Source: a virus
DNA: 20,985 nt
Reading direction: 5' to 3' (one strand)
IMG/VR virus record: IMGVR_UViG_3300004448_000111
Coordinates: 1-20,985 of that record
Shown here one piece after another: positions 3,059 through 17,166 of this stretch. Position 1 is the first letter of the stretch; each line of letters starts with the position of its first letter. The position numbers and the translations under genes were made by a program. The notes under the pieces were generated by a model. The model searched no databases. It was not told where the DNA came from and worked only from the letters and a program-made list of their open reading frames with translations.

Positions 3059-3666
3059 TACATACCACGCCCTTGAGATTTAATTTGATTTAACGTCTGG
3101 ATAAACTGTTGCCCTGACATTCTGTCAACAGCGGTTTGACCAAGCTGAGAAACCATTATTCTAAACGCATCATCATCCGTCATCACGGTCGGCATGCCAG
3201 CTTGTGGGCTTGGCCCCTGCAATGCTGCGCGTGCTGCTTGCGGCATACCAGACGCAGGCATTTCTGGTCTAGCCATATTTTGCGCAGCAGCAGGCATACC
3301 ACCGCCAACAGGGATATTACCAAATGTCATGCTTGGCGCGGCAGGCATACCACCACCAACAGGCGTGCTGCCAAACGGCATATTCTGCGCTGGACTCGCT
3401 TGCGGTCTAACCTGTGTTCGGCCAGTACCACCGCCGCGTGTCACTGTTGGGCGTGGGGCAGCTTTTGGCGCGATGCTTTCATCCGGCGCAAGCAAGCCAC
3501 GCATCTGACGCACGCGGCGCTTACGCTCATCATCCTCTGACCCATATGGCGTTGCAAGAGCATTTGCCAGCATAGAGAATATACCGCCGCCCTCAAACTC
3601 TTTGCCGAACTTGCCAGCGCCACCGCCGTCGATCATATCAATGAAGTCTAAAAATTTATCTGCCAT
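3058..3666 (-). CDS. Pro/Gly/Met-rich protein of unknown function
   Basis: A 202-residue protein. Residues 1-40 form an acidic/glycine-rich head (DFIDMIDGGGAGKFGKEFEG); residues 41-75 are charged (DDERKRRVRQMRGLL). The central part (about 75-160) is low complexity, with repeated (M/T)xFGxxPVGGGMPAA and several MPA or GMP steps. The end, about 161-202, looks helical (DDDAFRIMVSQLGQTAVDRM and SGQQFIQTLNQIKSQ). No enzyme motif is visible. It sits between two short basic proteins and likely works in the virion or in assembly, possibly as a flexible linker or scaffold-like protein. The start directly follows the previous gene's stop by one base, with an AGAAGAAG stretch serving as ribosome binding site. 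Confidence 0.7.
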   Translation of the reverse strand: MADKFLDFIDMIDGGGAGKFGKEFEGGGIFSMLANALATPYGSEDDERKRRVRQMRGLLAPDESIAPKAAPRPTVTRGGGTGRTQVRPQASPAQNMPFGSTPVGGGMPAAPSMTFGNIPVGGGMPAAAQNMARPEMPASGMPQAARAALQGPSPQAGMPTVMTDDDAFRIMVSQLGQTAVDRMSGQQFIQTLNQIKSQGRGM

Positions 3667-8542: not shown

Positions 8543-8860
8543 CTATGGCCCCTCTACGGGCTTCCAATCGCCATCTTCCAGATCTATCCCAGCACACTCC
8601 GCGCCAAGCGCAGCATATCCCGCAAGATCCACGAACCCATCCGCGTCAACCTGATGCGAGACACGGCTTATCTTAAGCAGGCCCACCATCATGCACACGT
8701 CCGACGCGGTTAGCGTTTCCTTGCCCGCAATATACGCGTTCCACATGACCGCAATGCGTTGGAAGTTTTCCTGCGGTGGCCCGTAAACCCGATTCCTTGA
8801 TCCATGCACCAGCGTGCTTGCTTTTGCCAGCACCTTGCCGCGTGTCGTATCCGTATTCAT
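8543..8860 (-). CDS. DUF6378-like phage protein
   Basis: A 105-residue protein. Motifs in order: a helix with a small-residue loop, HGSRNRVYGPPQENFQRIAV (about 19-38), then MWNAYIAGKETLTASDVCMM, VGLLKISRVSHQVDADGFVD and LAGYAALGAECAG. The pattern YGxPxxNFxRIA, then LTxxDVxMMxxLxKISR, then DxxxDLAGYAAL is the signature I associate with DUF6378, a common phage protein of unknown but possibly nucleotide-related function; the all-helical form recalls MazG-type folds. The start overlaps the upstream stop (ATGA). It lies near the end of the leftward operon. Confidence 0.8.
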   Translation of the reverse strand: MNTDTTRGKVLAKASTLVHGSRNRVYGPPQENFQRIAVMWNAYIAGKETLTASDVCMMVGLLKISRVSHQVDADGFVDLAGYAALGAECAGIDLEDGDWKPVEGP

Positions 8861-9117
8861 TTTCGTTTTCCCTTTTCCAGTTTAATTTTGCGCTTGAGTA
8901 TTTCCGCGCGCTCTGTTGCCGTCCAGCGCGGCAAGCTTGGATCAAACCTGCGCCGGTTGGCGAACCCTTCCAATTCGGCAAGCGTCGAGCAGCTTGCCAG
9001 TTTTTCATCAAATGACCTGCCCCATTCACGCCCGACAAAATGCCCGCAAGGATAAGTCACCGCTTTACCCTCGGCAAACATACGATCCAACCATTTTTCC
9101 AAACCCTTTTTATTCAC
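8857..9117 (-). CDS. Small basic hypothetical protein with a CGH motif
   Basis: An 86-residue frame from a GTG at 9117, overlapping the next gene as ATGA. The N-terminus MNKKGLEKWLDRMFAEGKAV is followed by TYPCGHFVGREWGRSFDEKL, a helical middle and a very basic tail (RAEILKRKIKLEKGKRK). The YPCGHFVGREWG stretch is conserved in style with other small phage proteins; one Cys and one His nearby could bind metal. The ribosome site is weak, and a downstream ATG at residue 13 is an alternative start, though it would lose the first helix. Function unknown. Confidence 0.6.
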   Translation of the reverse strand: MNKKGLEKWLDRMFAEGKAVTYPCGHFVGREWGRSFDEKLASCSTLAELEGFANRRRFDPSLPRWTATERAEILKRKIKLEKGKRK

Positions 9118-9150
9118 CTAAATTTTACCTTGGCAAAACCGCAGCTATGC

Positions 9151-9203
9151 AATCTAGCAACCATTAACATTACCTAAAGGTAAAATGTTAATGTTGCTAG
9201 ATT
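9151..9203. repeat. 53-bp near-perfect inverted repeat after the primase gene
   Basis: Outer arms AATCTAGCAAC and GTTGCTAGATT pair perfectly. Next come ATTAACATT and AATGTTAAT, also perfect. The centre TTACCT-AA-AGGTAA is itself a perfect dyad. One extra C on the left and two extra bases on the right are the only irregularities. It has no downstream T-run in either direction, so it is unlikely to be a simple terminator. Candidate replication or regulatory site. Confidence 0.75.
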
Positions 9204-9237
9204 TCACAGCATTTAGCCAAAGTTATACCATTTCTAA

Positions 9238-9264
9238 TAACATTTAATAACATTTATAACATTT
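9238..9264 (+). repeat. Three TAACATTT iterons
   Basis: Exact TAACATTT occurs at 9238-9245, 9248-9255 and 9257-9264, with starts 10 and 9 bp apart, close to one DNA turn. Further copies lie in reverse at 9309-9316 and, as TAACATT, inside both arms of the adjacent 53-bp inverted repeat. The surrounding stretch is AT-rich. Arrangement resembles replication-initiator or repressor iterons. Confidence 0.6.
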
Positions 9265-9335
9265 TAACCCGTAACCCATTGATTTCATTGAACCTGCAAA
9301 ACGTTATCAAATGTTATCCCTTTCCCTTTTGCCGT

Positions 9336-11309
9336 CTAATCCTTCACCCGCCCATTTTTATCCGTAAACCATACCAAACCCTCATTTTTGACCAAATGAC
9401 CGCCCGCAATCAGCGCATCTATCGCCCTCGTATAAGACTGGTTTGGATTGGTTGCGCCGGTGATTTTGCCCTTGAAATGATCCCGCAAAACCTCCTCGTC
9501 AATCGTCCAGTAAGCGCTTGCCTCTGGAAATCCTGCGCCTGCTGGGTTTGGTTTTCCGACGCGTTCACCGCGTAATTGGGTAAAACACCGCTTGAGCAAT
9601 AGCTGATTTTTGCCGGTTATCTTTGGCTTGCTGGCTTCCTCGATTTGCTCTGCGCTGGCCTCTGATATGGTGCAAGTCGTTACGGCATCGCCGTCCTCGT
9701 CTTGCCCCAATTCAACAACGTCCAGCACAAAATCAAACCTTGCGCCAGTTTCCATGTCGCGTTGTTTTGTGGCTATCGCGTAGCGAATGCCCGTCTCCGC
9801 ATCATGGTCTAGCTCAATTTCTGCGTCCGTTGCGCTGCGCAAGCTTGAATGGCCACGCGCGCCCGCTGCTTTATCTTTGCCGCTGTGATGCACGATCATG
9901 ATATGCGCCAGCGTTACTTGGCGCAGCGCATCGACGTTGCCGATGAATCTTGTCATATCATCCGGCGCATTTTCATTGCCGCCCGCCATGCTGCGCGATA
10001 ATGTATCCACCACGATCATGCGCACCGGCCCATGCTTGCGCGATACCTCACGCACCAGCTTGGCCAGCTTTTCCAGATCCGCATTTGGGTCAAGCAAATT
10101 GACAGGCGACGGCCTGACAGCCAGCTTGACGTCTTTATGCTCTGGATATTTTTGGCGCAGCGCAACGATCCGATTGTGAAACGCATTGCCGCCTTCCGTT
10201 GCCAAATATAATACGCTGCCGCCTTGCACCTTGCATCCGTTCCACGGCTGGCTTGCTGCTACGTGCCACGACATATCTAGCGCAAAGAATGATTTGCCTG
10301 TGTTGCTTGGCCCGTATAGGACGGACATTTGCCCTTCGCCCAGCCATTTTTTTACCAGATAATTTCTTGAAAGCTGGGCCTGCGCATCTTCTGGGAAAAA
10401 CACCTCGTCCAGCAAGTTATGCACGGTTAATGCTTTGCGTGTGGCCTCTGGCCCTTGCGTAACCCAAAGATCATTAAAATCTGTGCCTTCGTTTGGCGGC
10501 AAAATATATTCAACGCCATGCTCGGCAAATGCTTGCTCCGCTGCCTTTATGCCAGCTTCGTCATTATCGCCTGCCACCACCAGCGTTGCGTCTGGCTTGG
10601 CTTCCCTAAGCCCCGCCACGACCTTGTGAATATTGCCTGCGTTTAGCGCAAATACGACTGGCTTGCCCGTTGCTTGTGCAATGCTTGCCGCCGTTGCCCA
10701 GCCTTCCGCTATATATGCAAAATCCCTGATTGGCCCGCCGATTACGGAGAAATTTCCGTTGACCGGCATTTTATACGAAAATTTCTTTTTGCCGTCCTCG
10801 TCTATAAACTGCACGCCTTGGCGTCTGCCTGTCACGTCAATTATTGGTATTTGCAGATCAGGCCCGTCAATAATAGCGTTATGACGCTGTACGTTTTTGC
10901 GTACCAGATACGGGTGCGTTTCCGCGTCTGGCGCTTCCTGCGCTTGCTCAATTTCCGGCATTATCTGCTCCCCCTGCGCTGGCCATTCTATGGCTTTATT
11001 TTGCGGCCTTGCAAGATCCGGCATTTTATTTGCGTCCGGCCATAACCCTTGGCTGCGCAATGCTTCTTGTATGGCCTTAAAATCATTGCACTGCCTGCAA
11101 TTAACCATGACCTCGCCGTTGAACTCTTTTATCCAAAACCTGTCCTTGCCGCCGCAATGCGGGCATGCTCCATGATGCTCGCCCTTGCTGGTTTGTTTTA
11201 GGTTAAGGAGCTTGACTATCTCGTTGCCCCATTCTGCCCAATGCGCGGTGGGGAACTTGCTATCCTGCCTTAAATTGCTTAACATAATCGTACATACCTC
11301 TCTTCCCAT
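9336..11309 (-). CDS. Primase-helicase fusion (zinc finger, TOPRIM-like, RecA-like ATPase)
   Basis: A 657-residue replication protein. A DnaG-type zinc finger (CPHC at 49-52 with FWIKE, and CRQC at 71-74) precedes a TOPRIM-like domain (AEGWATAAS, E202; VVAGDNDEAG, D248/D250). A RecA/RepA-type helicase ATPase follows, with Walker A GPSNTGKS (333-340), Walker B MIVVDTLSR (431-439) and HHSGKD (474-479). The C-terminal 75 residues look like a winged helix (EEVLRDHFKGK, then SYTRAIDALIAGGHLVKN). The protein should prime and unwind DNA at the phage fork. The ATG at 11309 follows a GGGCGGGG that lies in a hairpin; a second start at 11285 has AGAGG outside the hairpin and would remove eight residues. 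It is downstream of the single-strand binding protein gene. Confidence 0.93.
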   Translation of the reverse strand: MGREVCTIMLSNLRQDSKFPTAHWAEWGNEIVKLLNLKQTSKGEHHGACPHCGGKDRFWIKEFNGEVMVNCRQCNDFKAIQEALRSQGLWPDANKMPDLARPQNKAIEWPAQGEQIMPEIEQAQEAPDAETHPYLVRKNVQRHNAIIDGPDLQIPIIDVTGRRQGVQFIDEDGKKKFSYKMPVNGNFSVIGGPIRDFAYIAEGWATAASIAQATGKPVVFALNAGNIHKVVAGLREAKPDATLVVAGDNDEAGIKAAEQAFAEHGVEYILPPNEGTDFNDLWVTQGPEATRKALTVHNLLDEVFFPEDAQAQLSRNYLVKKWLGEGQMSVLYGPSNTGKSFFALDMSWHVAASQPWNGCKVQGGSVLYLATEGGNAFHNRIVALRQKYPEHKDVKLAVRPSPVNLLDPNADLEKLAKLVREVSRKHGPVRMIVVDTLSRSMAGGNENAPDDMTRFIGNVDALRQVTLAHIMIVHHSGKDKAAGARGHSSLRSATDAEIELDHDAETGIRYAIATKQRDMETGARFDFVLDVVELGQDEDGDAVTTCTISEASAEQIEEASKPKITGKNQLLLKRCFTQLRGERVGKPNPAGAGFPEASAYWTIDEEVLRDHFKGKITGATNPNQSYTRAIDALIAGGHLVKNEGLVWFTDKNGRVKD

Positions 11310-13496: not shown

Positions 13497-13560
13497 TTTC
13501 ATTCTCCTTCTGTAGCCTGATTGGAACAGCTACAGATAAACATATATCGTGTCAATAGCA

Positions 13561-13658: not shown

Positions 13659-14201
13659 ATGAACCTTACGCACACACATGAATTTTTAATAACGCACATC
13701 ACCGACAGCGGCACAGGCTTTGGCGTGCGCACCGACAACGGCGAAAGCGTCCACATATCGCCGCGCTTATTGCAGCAGGCGCACGCAAACCTTGATGACA
13801 TTTGCAAAGGTATCATCGTGCAGAACGCCATCGAGGAGAACCGCGAGCGCACGCCGTGGGTTGCCGCCTACGTGCAGGAACGACGCGCTGCGCGTGACGT
13901 GCTGGGCGTGGCGACTGACGCGCCAGCAGAGGCCGTACAAGCGCCCACCGAGGAGCCTGAGCAGGTCGATTGGGCTGACGTCCAGCGCAAGATCATTTCG
14001 ACACTGCAAAGCGACAACGTGACGTATTGCGAGACGGCAGACATTGCTGAAGTCGTTGGCGTGGACACGCGCAAGCTGTCACAGCATCTCGAAAATATGC
14101 ACGCACGCGGCGAGATATGCAAAGCGCACGTCAATCAGCGAGCAAACCAACAGCGCGCAACCTTAGTGCTGTGGAGCATTAACGCGGATGTGTACAAATG
14201 A
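13659..14201 (+). CDS. Predicted OB-fold plus winged-helix DNA-binding protein
   Basis: A 180-residue protein with AGGAG upstream. The N-terminal 70 residues, with EFLITHITDSGTGFGVRTDN, GESVHISPRLLQ, KGIIVQNAIEENRERTPW and VAAYV, resemble a cold-shock-type OB fold (GFGxxxxDxGExVHIS, then a late V-x-N-x-E-x-R-x-TPW-A strand). An acidic Pro/Ala linker follows (about 85-105). Residues 110-180 look like a winged helix (VQRKIISTLQSDNVTYCETA, DIAEVVGVDTRKLSQHLENM, then a wing with RATLVLWSI). It is the first gene after the strong promoter and likely an early regulator or replication accessory factor. The fold call is by eye; no named family. Confidence 0.65.
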   Translation: MNLTHTHEFLITHITDSGTGFGVRTDNGESVHISPRLLQQAHANLDDICKGIIVQNAIEENRERTPWVAAYVQERRAARDVLGVATDAPAEAVQAPTEEPEQVDWADVQRKIISTLQSDNVTYCETADIAEVVGVDTRKLSQHLENMHARGEICKAHVNQRANQQRATLVLWSINADVYK

Positions 14202-15624: not shown

Positions 15625-15847
15625 ATGGGATATATCAAAACTGGAAAACAGCGCCAGCGTGGGCGCGTATATTGACGAAGATGACAGCACGCCGACGCAG
15701 CCAACGCCGCAGATGCTGGTTATGTCGATCCGGCGCAAGGCAGACATCATGCGGATGGACGCGGGGCGTGGCCCCGAGCGCCTGACGATCAAGCAGCGCG
15801 CCGAAGAGATCATGGCGCTCTGCGAGATGCTGGAGCGGCGGCTGTGA
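15617..15847 (+). CDS. 76-residue hypothetical protein
   Basis: Begins at the ATG at 15617, which has AGGAGA upstream and overlaps the previous stop by 8 bp; a longer frame from 15521 has no ribosome site. Product: MAKWDISKLENSASVGAYID, EDDSTPTQPTPQMLVMSIRR and a helical, basic C-terminal half (KADIMRMDAGRGPERLTIKQ, RAEEIMALCEMLERRL). It may be an accessory or regulator of the methyltransferase that follows; this is only a positional inference. Confidence 0.65.
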   Translation: MAKWDISKLENSASVGAYIDEDDSTPTQPTPQMLVMSIRRKADIMRMDAGRGPERLTIKQRAEEIMALCEMLERRL

Positions 15848-17166
15848 GCGCTCTACGATATGGCAGCGTTTGCTCTGGCGTAGAAGCCGCAACTGTCGCA
15901 TGGCACCCGCTTGGCTGGGAGCCGCAGTGGTTTAGCGAAATCGAAAAGTTCCCTAGCGCAGTGCTTGCGCATCACCACCCAAACACGCCAAACTTAGGCG
16001 ACATGACAGCTTTTAAGGAGTGGCCCAATGACCCAATCGACCTTCTTGTTGGGGGAACCCCCTGCCAAAGCTTCTCAGTCGCTGGACTTCGCAAAGGACT
16101 TAGTGACCCACGCGGGAACCTTATGCTCACCTATCTTGCCATTGCTGCACAATATCAGCCCAAGTGGTTGGTTTGGGAGAACGTCCCCGGCGTCCTGTCT
16201 AGCCAACGAGGACGGGATTTTGGAACCTTCCTCGGGGCGCTGGGCCAGCTCGGGTATGGGTTCGCCTACAGAGTGCTTGACGCTCAATACTTCGGAGTGG
16301 CCCAGCGACGCCGCCGTGTGTTCGTTGTCGGACACCTTGGAGACTGGAAGCGTGCCGCAGCGGTTCTTTTTGAGCGCGAAAGCCTGTCAGGGCATCCTGC
16401 GCCGAGCCGAGAAGCGGGGCAAAAAGCTGCCCCAACAGTTACACAAGGCGCTCCATTCAGTCGCACAGGAAACGAGCGAGTAGAGGCGGAGGCATATGTG
16501 CCGCAAAGCACTGGCAGCGCATACGATCCGACGATGGAGACTTTGCCTGTCATTACTGGTTCGCTTTGCGCCAGAACGGGCCAATCTATTAGCGTGCAAG
16601 ATGCGGCTCAGTCACACTTGCTGCCAATAGCCTTCGGCGCACAGAACAGCGCAAGCCAAGGCGACAGTGTGTCAACGAAAGTCACGCCAACGCTGGATAA
16701 AAGCAAGACGCCAGTGGTTTTGTATCAAGACAGCCAGTTTGGAGTTTCTGAATATGAAAGCGCAGGGACTCTTAGAGCTGGGCGCATCCCTGAGCATCAA
16801 ATGGTTATTGATCATGTCACACCAACGCTGGACAAGAGCAAGACGCCAGCGGTGGCTACGCATTCCGTCGCTGGAACAATGCTTTCAAGAAATACATCTG
16901 GCGGCTTTAGCAACAGTATTGACCACGCGGCGGCTGGATATATGGCTATGCAAGCCAGCGCAGTACGCCGCCTAACGCCAGTAGAATGCGAGCGTCTGCA
17001 GGGCTTTCCCGACAACTACACGCAGATACCGTGGCGCAACAAAACGCCAGAGAATTGCCCAGATGGGCCTCGCTACAAAGCTATGGGCAACTCAATGGCT
17101 GTGCCTGTGATGCGCTGGATTGGCGAGCGGATCAACATGGTAAACAGCATTGGAGAAAAGCTATGA
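15844..17166 (+). CDS. DNA cytosine-C5 methyltransferase
   Basis: A 440-residue Dcm-type enzyme from a GTG at 15844 (GGAG upstream, stop overlap GTGA). Motif I is YGSVCSGVEAAT (6-17), and motif IV GGTPCQSFS (70-78) contains the catalytic Cys74. Motif VI is WENVPG (111-116), motif VIII is AQRRRR (153-158), and the late motifs are RLTPVECERLQGFPDNYT and KAMGNSMAVPV. All catalytic motifs are intact. It would methylate cytosine in a short sequence, protecting phage DNA from restriction or partnering a nuclease. Between motifs VIII and IX lies a variable stretch with two near-identical VTPTLDKSKTP segments, usual in phage enzymes that carry multiple PTL repeats. No classic restriction partner is recognised, though two PD-(D/E)xK genes follow. 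Confidence 0.96.
   Translation: MSALRYGSVCSGVEAATVAWHPLGWEPQWFSEIEKFPSAVLAHHHPNTPNLGDMTAFKEWPNDPIDLLVGGTPCQSFSVAGLRKGLSDPRGNLMLTYLAIAAQYQPKWLVWENVPGVLSSQRGRDFGTFLGALGQLGYGFAYRVLDAQYFGVAQRRRRVFVVGHLGDWKRAAAVLFERESLSGHPAPSREAGQKAAPTVTQGAPFSRTGNERVEAEAYVPQSTGSAYDPTMETLPVITGSLCARTGQSISVQDAAQSHLLPIAFGAQNSASQGDSVSTKVTPTLDKSKTPVVLYQDSQFGVSEYESAGTLRAGRIPEHQMVIDHVTPTLDKSKTPAVATHSVAGTMLSRNTSGGFSNSIDHAAAGYMAMQASAVRRLTPVECERLQGFPDNYTQIPWRNKTPENCPDGPRYKAMGNSMAVPVMRWIGERINMVNSIGEKL
16681..16851 (+). repeat. Direct repeat in the methyltransferase variable region
   Basis: About 36 bases at 16681-16716 and 16816-16851 encode VTPTLDKSKTP(V/A)V and differ at only a few third or second positions. The copies are 135 bp (45 codons) apart in the target-recognition part. 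They look like a recent duplication or a site for gene rearrangement. Confidence 0.8.

Follow-up and report, generated by a model that had tools for sequence, protein, structure and literature searches.

The window analysed here is a stretch of 20,985 nucleotides from a marine phage (IMG/VR record IMGVR_UViG_3300004448_000111, positions 1 to 20,985). Its minus-strand replication operon is interrupted by a gap without coding at positions 9118 to 9335. That this stretch is non-coding and lies directly 3' of the primase-helicase gene, as the original prediction held, is borne out by its flanks: the stop codon of the primase-helicase gene on one side and the start of the next ORF, encoding 86 amino acids, on the other (Table 1). 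The word TAACATT occurs nine times in the 21-kb window as compared to 2.85 copies expected, a number reached in none of 100 shuffles, and six of the nine copies fall within the gap. Three of these had been described as evenly spaced iterons; they are real, with spacings of 10 and 9 bp. Two further iterons, TAACGTT and TACCATT, had been overlooked, as had an IHF-type site, which is the sole match to the pattern WATCAANNNNTTR in the window. The iteron consensus of the window is TA[A/C]C[A/G]TT and the gap holds two facing sets. Read along the minus strand, two forward iterons are followed by the spacer with the IHF-type site, four reverse iterons and a 67-bp palindrome.

This palindrome had been announced as a 53-bp near-perfect inverted repeat. 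The repeat is real; its length is 67 bp, and it is imperfect with small bulges. As DNA it folds at -21.8 kcal/mol (z = -8.5), and none of 200 shuffles folded as well. Its arms carry TAACATT as stated, one copy on each strand, and a terminator scan of the window confirmed the absence of a T-run terminator. Rfam, tRNA, terminator and promoter scans of the window gave nothing explaining the palindrome; promoter matches at the array were at chance level only.

Table 1. Features of the non-coding gap and its flanking genes (window coordinates)
Feature	Position	Strand	Basis
Forward iteron 1, TAACATT	9310..9316	-	word count and layout across relatives
Forward iteron 2, TAACGTT, one mismatch	9300..9306	-	layout across relatives
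IHF consensus AATCAATGGGTTA, spacer between the facing iteron sets	9272..9284	-	perfect match
Reverse iteron 1, TAACATT	9257..9263	+	word count and layout across relatives
Reverse iteron 2, TAACATT	9248..9254	+	word count and layout across relatives
Reverse iteron 3, TAACATT	9238..9244	+	word count and layout across relatives
Reverse iteron 4, TACCATT, one mismatch	9226..9232	+	layout across relatives
67-bp palindrome, arms with further iterons (9184-9190 -, 9165-9171 +)	9144..9210		fold and word count
Palindrome centre CCTAAAGG/CCTTTAGG	9173..9180		kept in relatives with rewritten iterons
Primase-helicase gene: Zn ribbon, Toprim_3 primase, AAA_25 (RepA-type) helicase, C-terminal winged helix	9336..11309	-	Pfam; RSF1010 RepA match
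C-terminal winged-helix domain, about residues 567-657, proposed origin-binding	9339..9611	-	AlphaFold model, PDB fold matches
Recognition helix, residues 622-636	9402..9446	-	covariation scan, 297 columns
Arg628 codon	9426-9428	-	covariation scan
86-aa ORF just past the array, motif ELEGFANRR (..P.LP.W)	8857..9117	-	ORF and comparison with relatives

The last 118 residues of the primase-helicase, modelled with AlphaFold without DNA from an alignment of 45 relatives, are predicted to form a winged helix (pLDDT 79). Structural matches in the PDB reach a best Z of 8.6 and include KAT6A bound to DNA, ORC/MCM and CRP at Z about 7 to 8.6; such values indicate a common fold, not a family. No family for these 118 amino acids was found in Pfam or PHROGs, and a profile of the domain had no significant match among PDB sequences. 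For the helicase domain, RSF1010 RepA (1g8y) is the only PDB sequence match, with E 3.6e-6 for the single sequence and 5.1e-10 for the profile. Pfam searches of the primase-helicases returned only Zn_Ribbon_Prim, Toprim, Prim-Pol and AAA/Rad51-like families, and no D5 or DUF927. The N-terminal primase part differs between relatives: Toprim with Zn ribbon in the window, Prim-Pol in others and none detected in a third set. Helicase and winged helix are joined to different primase parts or to none (set L081-L084, L036, L050, L262, L310), which points to a shuffled module. In CRP phages an N-terminus without Pfam match is joined to the same helicase and winged helix.

Relatives were collected by using the primase-helicase as query against viral contigs, phage records and bacterial genomes; those from viruses number at least 554. 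A comparable layout with a rewritten word is present in about 150 relatives, in most cases immediately past the 3' end of the primase-helicase gene. Layouts with different words 3' of the gene are found in relatives about 40 to 99% identical and in prophages, and 28 five-base words occur across the relatives (e.g. GTATAAA, CTACAAA, GTCCTAA, CCGGACA; further GTAGAAA, GTGTAAA, GGAGGAA, GTCGGAA, CGTACCA, ATACCAA, CGTAACA, CGCAACA). Among near relatives (protein 95-99% identical) the flanks of the gap are kept and three array versions, A, B and C, are present. The isolated Roseobacter phages CRP-831/821 and CRP-811/823 share the layout of the window at the corresponding gap, their words being GTATAAA and CTACAAA, and in CRP-831, 10 of the 11 copies of its own word in 31 kb fall within the gap. 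In the CRP-821 record the gap 3' of the primase-helicase gene measures 175 bp (3282-3456); the match of this record to CRP-822, a phage of host FZCC0197, lies one base apart. These isolates are described in PMC12629253, where a term search for origin and repeats gave nothing on this region. The closer group is near base-exact: forward sites 10 bp apart, a spacer of 43-46 bp, reverse sites at 9, 9-10 and 11-12 bp, and the palindrome. In the distant (40%) group site counts differ and the CTWWAG palindrome is missing from many arrays; the distant named phages 1N2-2, XX1924, CGphi29 and CRP-406, whose C-termini are outside the covariation test, have a repeated word immediately past the 3' end of the gene. 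An IHF-like spacer site (at most one mismatch) is present in 59% of 46 nonredundant arrays as compared to 15% in shuffles, an enrichment that is only suggestive since related phages are not independent. Conservation in relatives, by which the original prediction was to be judged, fails for the letters of the repeats and holds for their number, orientation, spacing and palindrome.

The letter changes track the recognition helix of the primase-helicase. Arrays with a palindrome were registered on its centre by a rule blind to the protein, with filters for tandem sites and counts; the register of the word rests partly on fixing base 5 as A. Counts refer to nonredundant loci, not to independent events. 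Arg628 occurs with C at base 4 of the word in 47 of 47 nonredundant loci (72 loci in total) and Glu628 with G in 4 of 4, while Gly, Ser, Asn or Ala at this position go mostly with A and Gln mostly with T. In the scan of 297 columns covering helicase and C-terminus, the top column for base 4 is residue 628, whose corrected score of 0.71 compares with 0.39 for the runner-up; the top columns for bases 3 and 2 are residues 624 (Q624) and 621 (N621), respectively. Simulated on the helicase tree, the association at base 4 was reached in none of 2000 runs, and a tree built from the C-terminal domain with the helix left out gave none among 2974 that reached the observed score. When registers were not harmonised, 30 of 32 Arg loci had C; the other two are CGGGACA arrays whose register was shifted by two bases. 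Among loci collected once the rule had been noted, Arg was paired with C without exception (20/20). Poor fits are Gln628, which goes with T, G and possibly A and hence with no single base, a Ser with C (L323) and some low-copy arrays (L271, L322). Parsimony on the helicase tree puts the number of changes at about 13 for base 4 and at about 33 for the word. We propose that Gln624 and Asn623 may read neighbouring bases.

Gene and array adjoin each other, and linkage alone has to be considered as a source of such covariation. In 23 contigs of the clade of the window the 1974-bp gene has hundreds of variable sites. The only fixed gene difference between array types A/B and C is codon 623 in the recognition helix (Asn/Ser to Trp). 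Within the array, from stop+65 to stop+184, fixed differences set these types apart at 31 sites; none falls in the 170 bp that separate codon 623 from the array. A group about 70% identical (L021, L180-L227) has no array adjoining the gene. Taken alone, these relatives would seem to contradict the rule, but the three larger contigs of the group that were examined carry the array elsewhere, 5-6 kb from the primase-helicase and beside the small ORF of the 86-aa family. The words of the detached arrays, TATTA/TACTA or TATGA, suit Gln628, as in other Gln loci. Judged from the lone codon 623 and the detached arrays, the covariation is not mere linkage.

CRP-821 (L081-L084) has an N-terminus like CRP-823 and a C-terminus and array like CRP-831, as if C-terminus and origin had been swapped together.

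We read the stretch as the replication origin of the phage and the adjoining primase-helicase as its own initiator, with a probability of roughly 85%. The origin reading of the original prediction is thereby supported and sharpened by array layout and by the covariation of word and recognition helix. Array layout, the winged helix of the predicted model and the residue-to-base covariation were computed. Binding, IHF binding, melting, loading, bidirectionality and the start of replication at this site are inferred only: binding of the iterons by the primase-helicase from the covariation, the start of replication from the kind of protein that binds, from the layout and from the precedent of other systems (SaPI/PICI, PMC6092414; Cch2, PMC7581432; pRN1, PMC4234260). 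In the simplest model a single chain would bind the origin through its winged helix, load itself as a ring and prime. The winged helix would insert its recognition helix (622-636) into each iteron, where residue 628 would recognise base 4; bases 2-3 and the preceding base would fall to residues 621-624. The facing iteron sets, the IHF-type bend site and the iteron palindrome might position helicase rings on both strands; AT-rich DNA would then melt, the RepA-type ring be loaded and the fused primase domain lay the first primers. A GC-skew inflection, which had been expected at an origin, was not found at the array, and in four circular relatives the skew is lowest some 5 kb away, at the junction of the divergent operons. 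Since skew follows gene orientation in the circular relatives, this is weak evidence against an origin.

The strongest rival takes the array for an operator instead of a replication start: by binding it, the primase-helicase, or a fragment containing the winged helix, would control transcription of its own operon. The array is indeed placed between two genes of one operon, and covariation reveals the identity of the binder, not the consequence of binding. However, the array follows its own gene on the 3' side and does not sit at an operon promoter, promoter matches do not exceed chance, facing iterons with a bend site are the layout of origins, and in three genomes a different gene adjoins the array, the primase-helicase being 5-6 kb off. 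We consider this reading unlikely; the array could still serve, in a second role, as operator of a replication regulator. Still less support remains for another phage protein as the true binder, for example the product of the 86-aa ORF or the 180-aa HTH-like protein encoded at 13659-14201, with the C-terminus of the primase-helicase merely hitchhiking. Swaps would carry the 3' end of the gene along, gene and array being adjacent in the window, and the 86-aa ORF remains by the array where the primase-helicase does not. Such hitchhiking is at odds with the scores for bases 3 and 4, in which recognition-helix residues stand far above the remainder of the domain, with codon 623 as lone fixed site followed by 170 bp without fixed differences before the array, with a rule that holds when the array is detached and with an 86-aa ORF family found beside only 36 of 144 arrays; we regard it as very improbable. 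That the palindrome is an RNA element of the operon (terminator, RNase III site or leader) can draw on its strong stem-loop and is the least credible reading, given the lack of a T-run and of an Rfam match and given arms which in most lineages are made of the words of the linear iterons on both strands, pointing to a DNA-binding site.

The origin and initiator proposed here resemble several known systems. The P4 alpha protein combines primase, helicase and a C-terminal winged-helix origin-binding domain, which reads iterons (ori, crr), in one chain; its helicase belongs to another class. Likewise, the primase-helicase of the window has a predicted C-terminal winged helix whose recognition helix covaries with iterons, without binding data. 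A PDB sequence search with the window domain gave no match to that of P4 alpha, and P4 alpha is absent among the structural matches listed, which says little. SaPI/PICI pri-rep-ori modules and SCCmec Cch2 use an initiator helicase with a C-terminal DNA-binding domain, the primase being fused or adjacent, together with an origin that adjoins the 3' end of the initiator gene and consists of two sets of short iterons around an AT-rich stretch (PMC6092414, PMC7581432). The proposed iteron origin of the window phage likewise lies immediately 3' of its proposed initiator gene. In contrast, SaPI/PICI helicases are of the D5/DUF927 type and that of the window phage is an AAA_25 RecA-fold helicase related to RSF1010 RepA; SaPI/PICI are islands without full structural genes, whereas here we deal with a tailed phage, whose complete relatives encode capsid, portal, tail and terminase. 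The CCTTTAGG-centred iteron palindrome is an addition as compared to SaPI/PICI. In the archaeal plasmid pRN1 the primase-helicase ORF904 has a C-terminal winged helix, and an essential stem-loop origin just 3' of the gene varies in its letters while structure and flanks persist (PMC4234260). The window phage resembles it in the predicted winged helix of its primase-helicase and in a stem-loop of varying letters 3' of its own gene. Unlike the window protein, ORF904 has an AEP primase and an SF3 helicase, with neither iteron arrays reported as origin nor a residue-to-base rule. The RSF1010 RepA family has a RecA-fold helicase domain homologous to that of the window protein (E 5e-10 by profile), and the RSF1010 origin consists of iterons and inverted repeats (summarised in PMC4234260). 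RSF1010 uses three proteins (RepA/RepC/RepB'), whereas the window phage has primase, helicase and proposed iteron reader in one ORF. In PLE satellites the RepA DNA-binding domain and the origin covary and are swapped as modules, and an origin-targeting nuclease selects for changed iterons (PMC8263062). Covariation of the initiator DNA-binding domain with the origin is common to PLE and the window phage family; PLE differ in being satellites with a RepA_N initiator, semi-palindromic iterons of about 30 bp and two main origin types as opposed to 28 words here. Satellites, islands and an archaeal plasmid already show the overall plan, and PLE the covariation of initiator and origin. New are the helicase class, the phage/prophage family, the palindrome core and the residue-to-base rule with its 28 words; an earlier description outside the open-access literature is not excluded.

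To our knowledge, the origins of most phages are unknown. We tentatively suggest, well short of an established claim, that the arrays represent a large, previously undescribed origin family of phages and prophages, with a simple amino-acid-to-base rule in one recognition helix, in which layout, bend site and palindrome core persisted through dozens of replacements of the word in the sample, and that this rewriting serves as an identity tag. If so, the tag would keep co-infecting phages, satellites and origin-cutting nucleases off each other's origin. Independently of such a tag, the proposed origin, its initiator and the specificity residues can be read from the sequences of phages, and of prophages in several bacterial phyla, and the rule, which predicts part of the iteron from the protein, would allow origin prediction from sequence. 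Related phages, in which the word and the few amino acids proposed to read it change together, would offer a series of naturally matched pairs of initiator and origin, on which the evolution of origin specificity could be studied, along with the question whether it is driven by rivalry with satellites or other phages.

Some minor observations concern neighbouring genes and remote relatives. GC skew flips sign at about position 13500 of the window, at a divergent gene junction, and circular CRP genomes have their minimum at the matching junction. The 86-aa ORF family remains by the array even with the primase-helicase 5-6 kb away (contigs G001, G002, G003; L327-L332), and its product may be an origin or replication accessory factor. 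Two Verrucomicrobia contigs (L310 and L317, the latter Akkermansiaceae) encode a short helicase with the C-terminal domain, which in L310 is a protein of 419 aa without detected primase domain; their TCCCA array fits the pairing of Arg with C. At 15844-17166 (+) the window encodes a DNA cytosine-5 methyltransferase (TIGR00675, E 7e-54).
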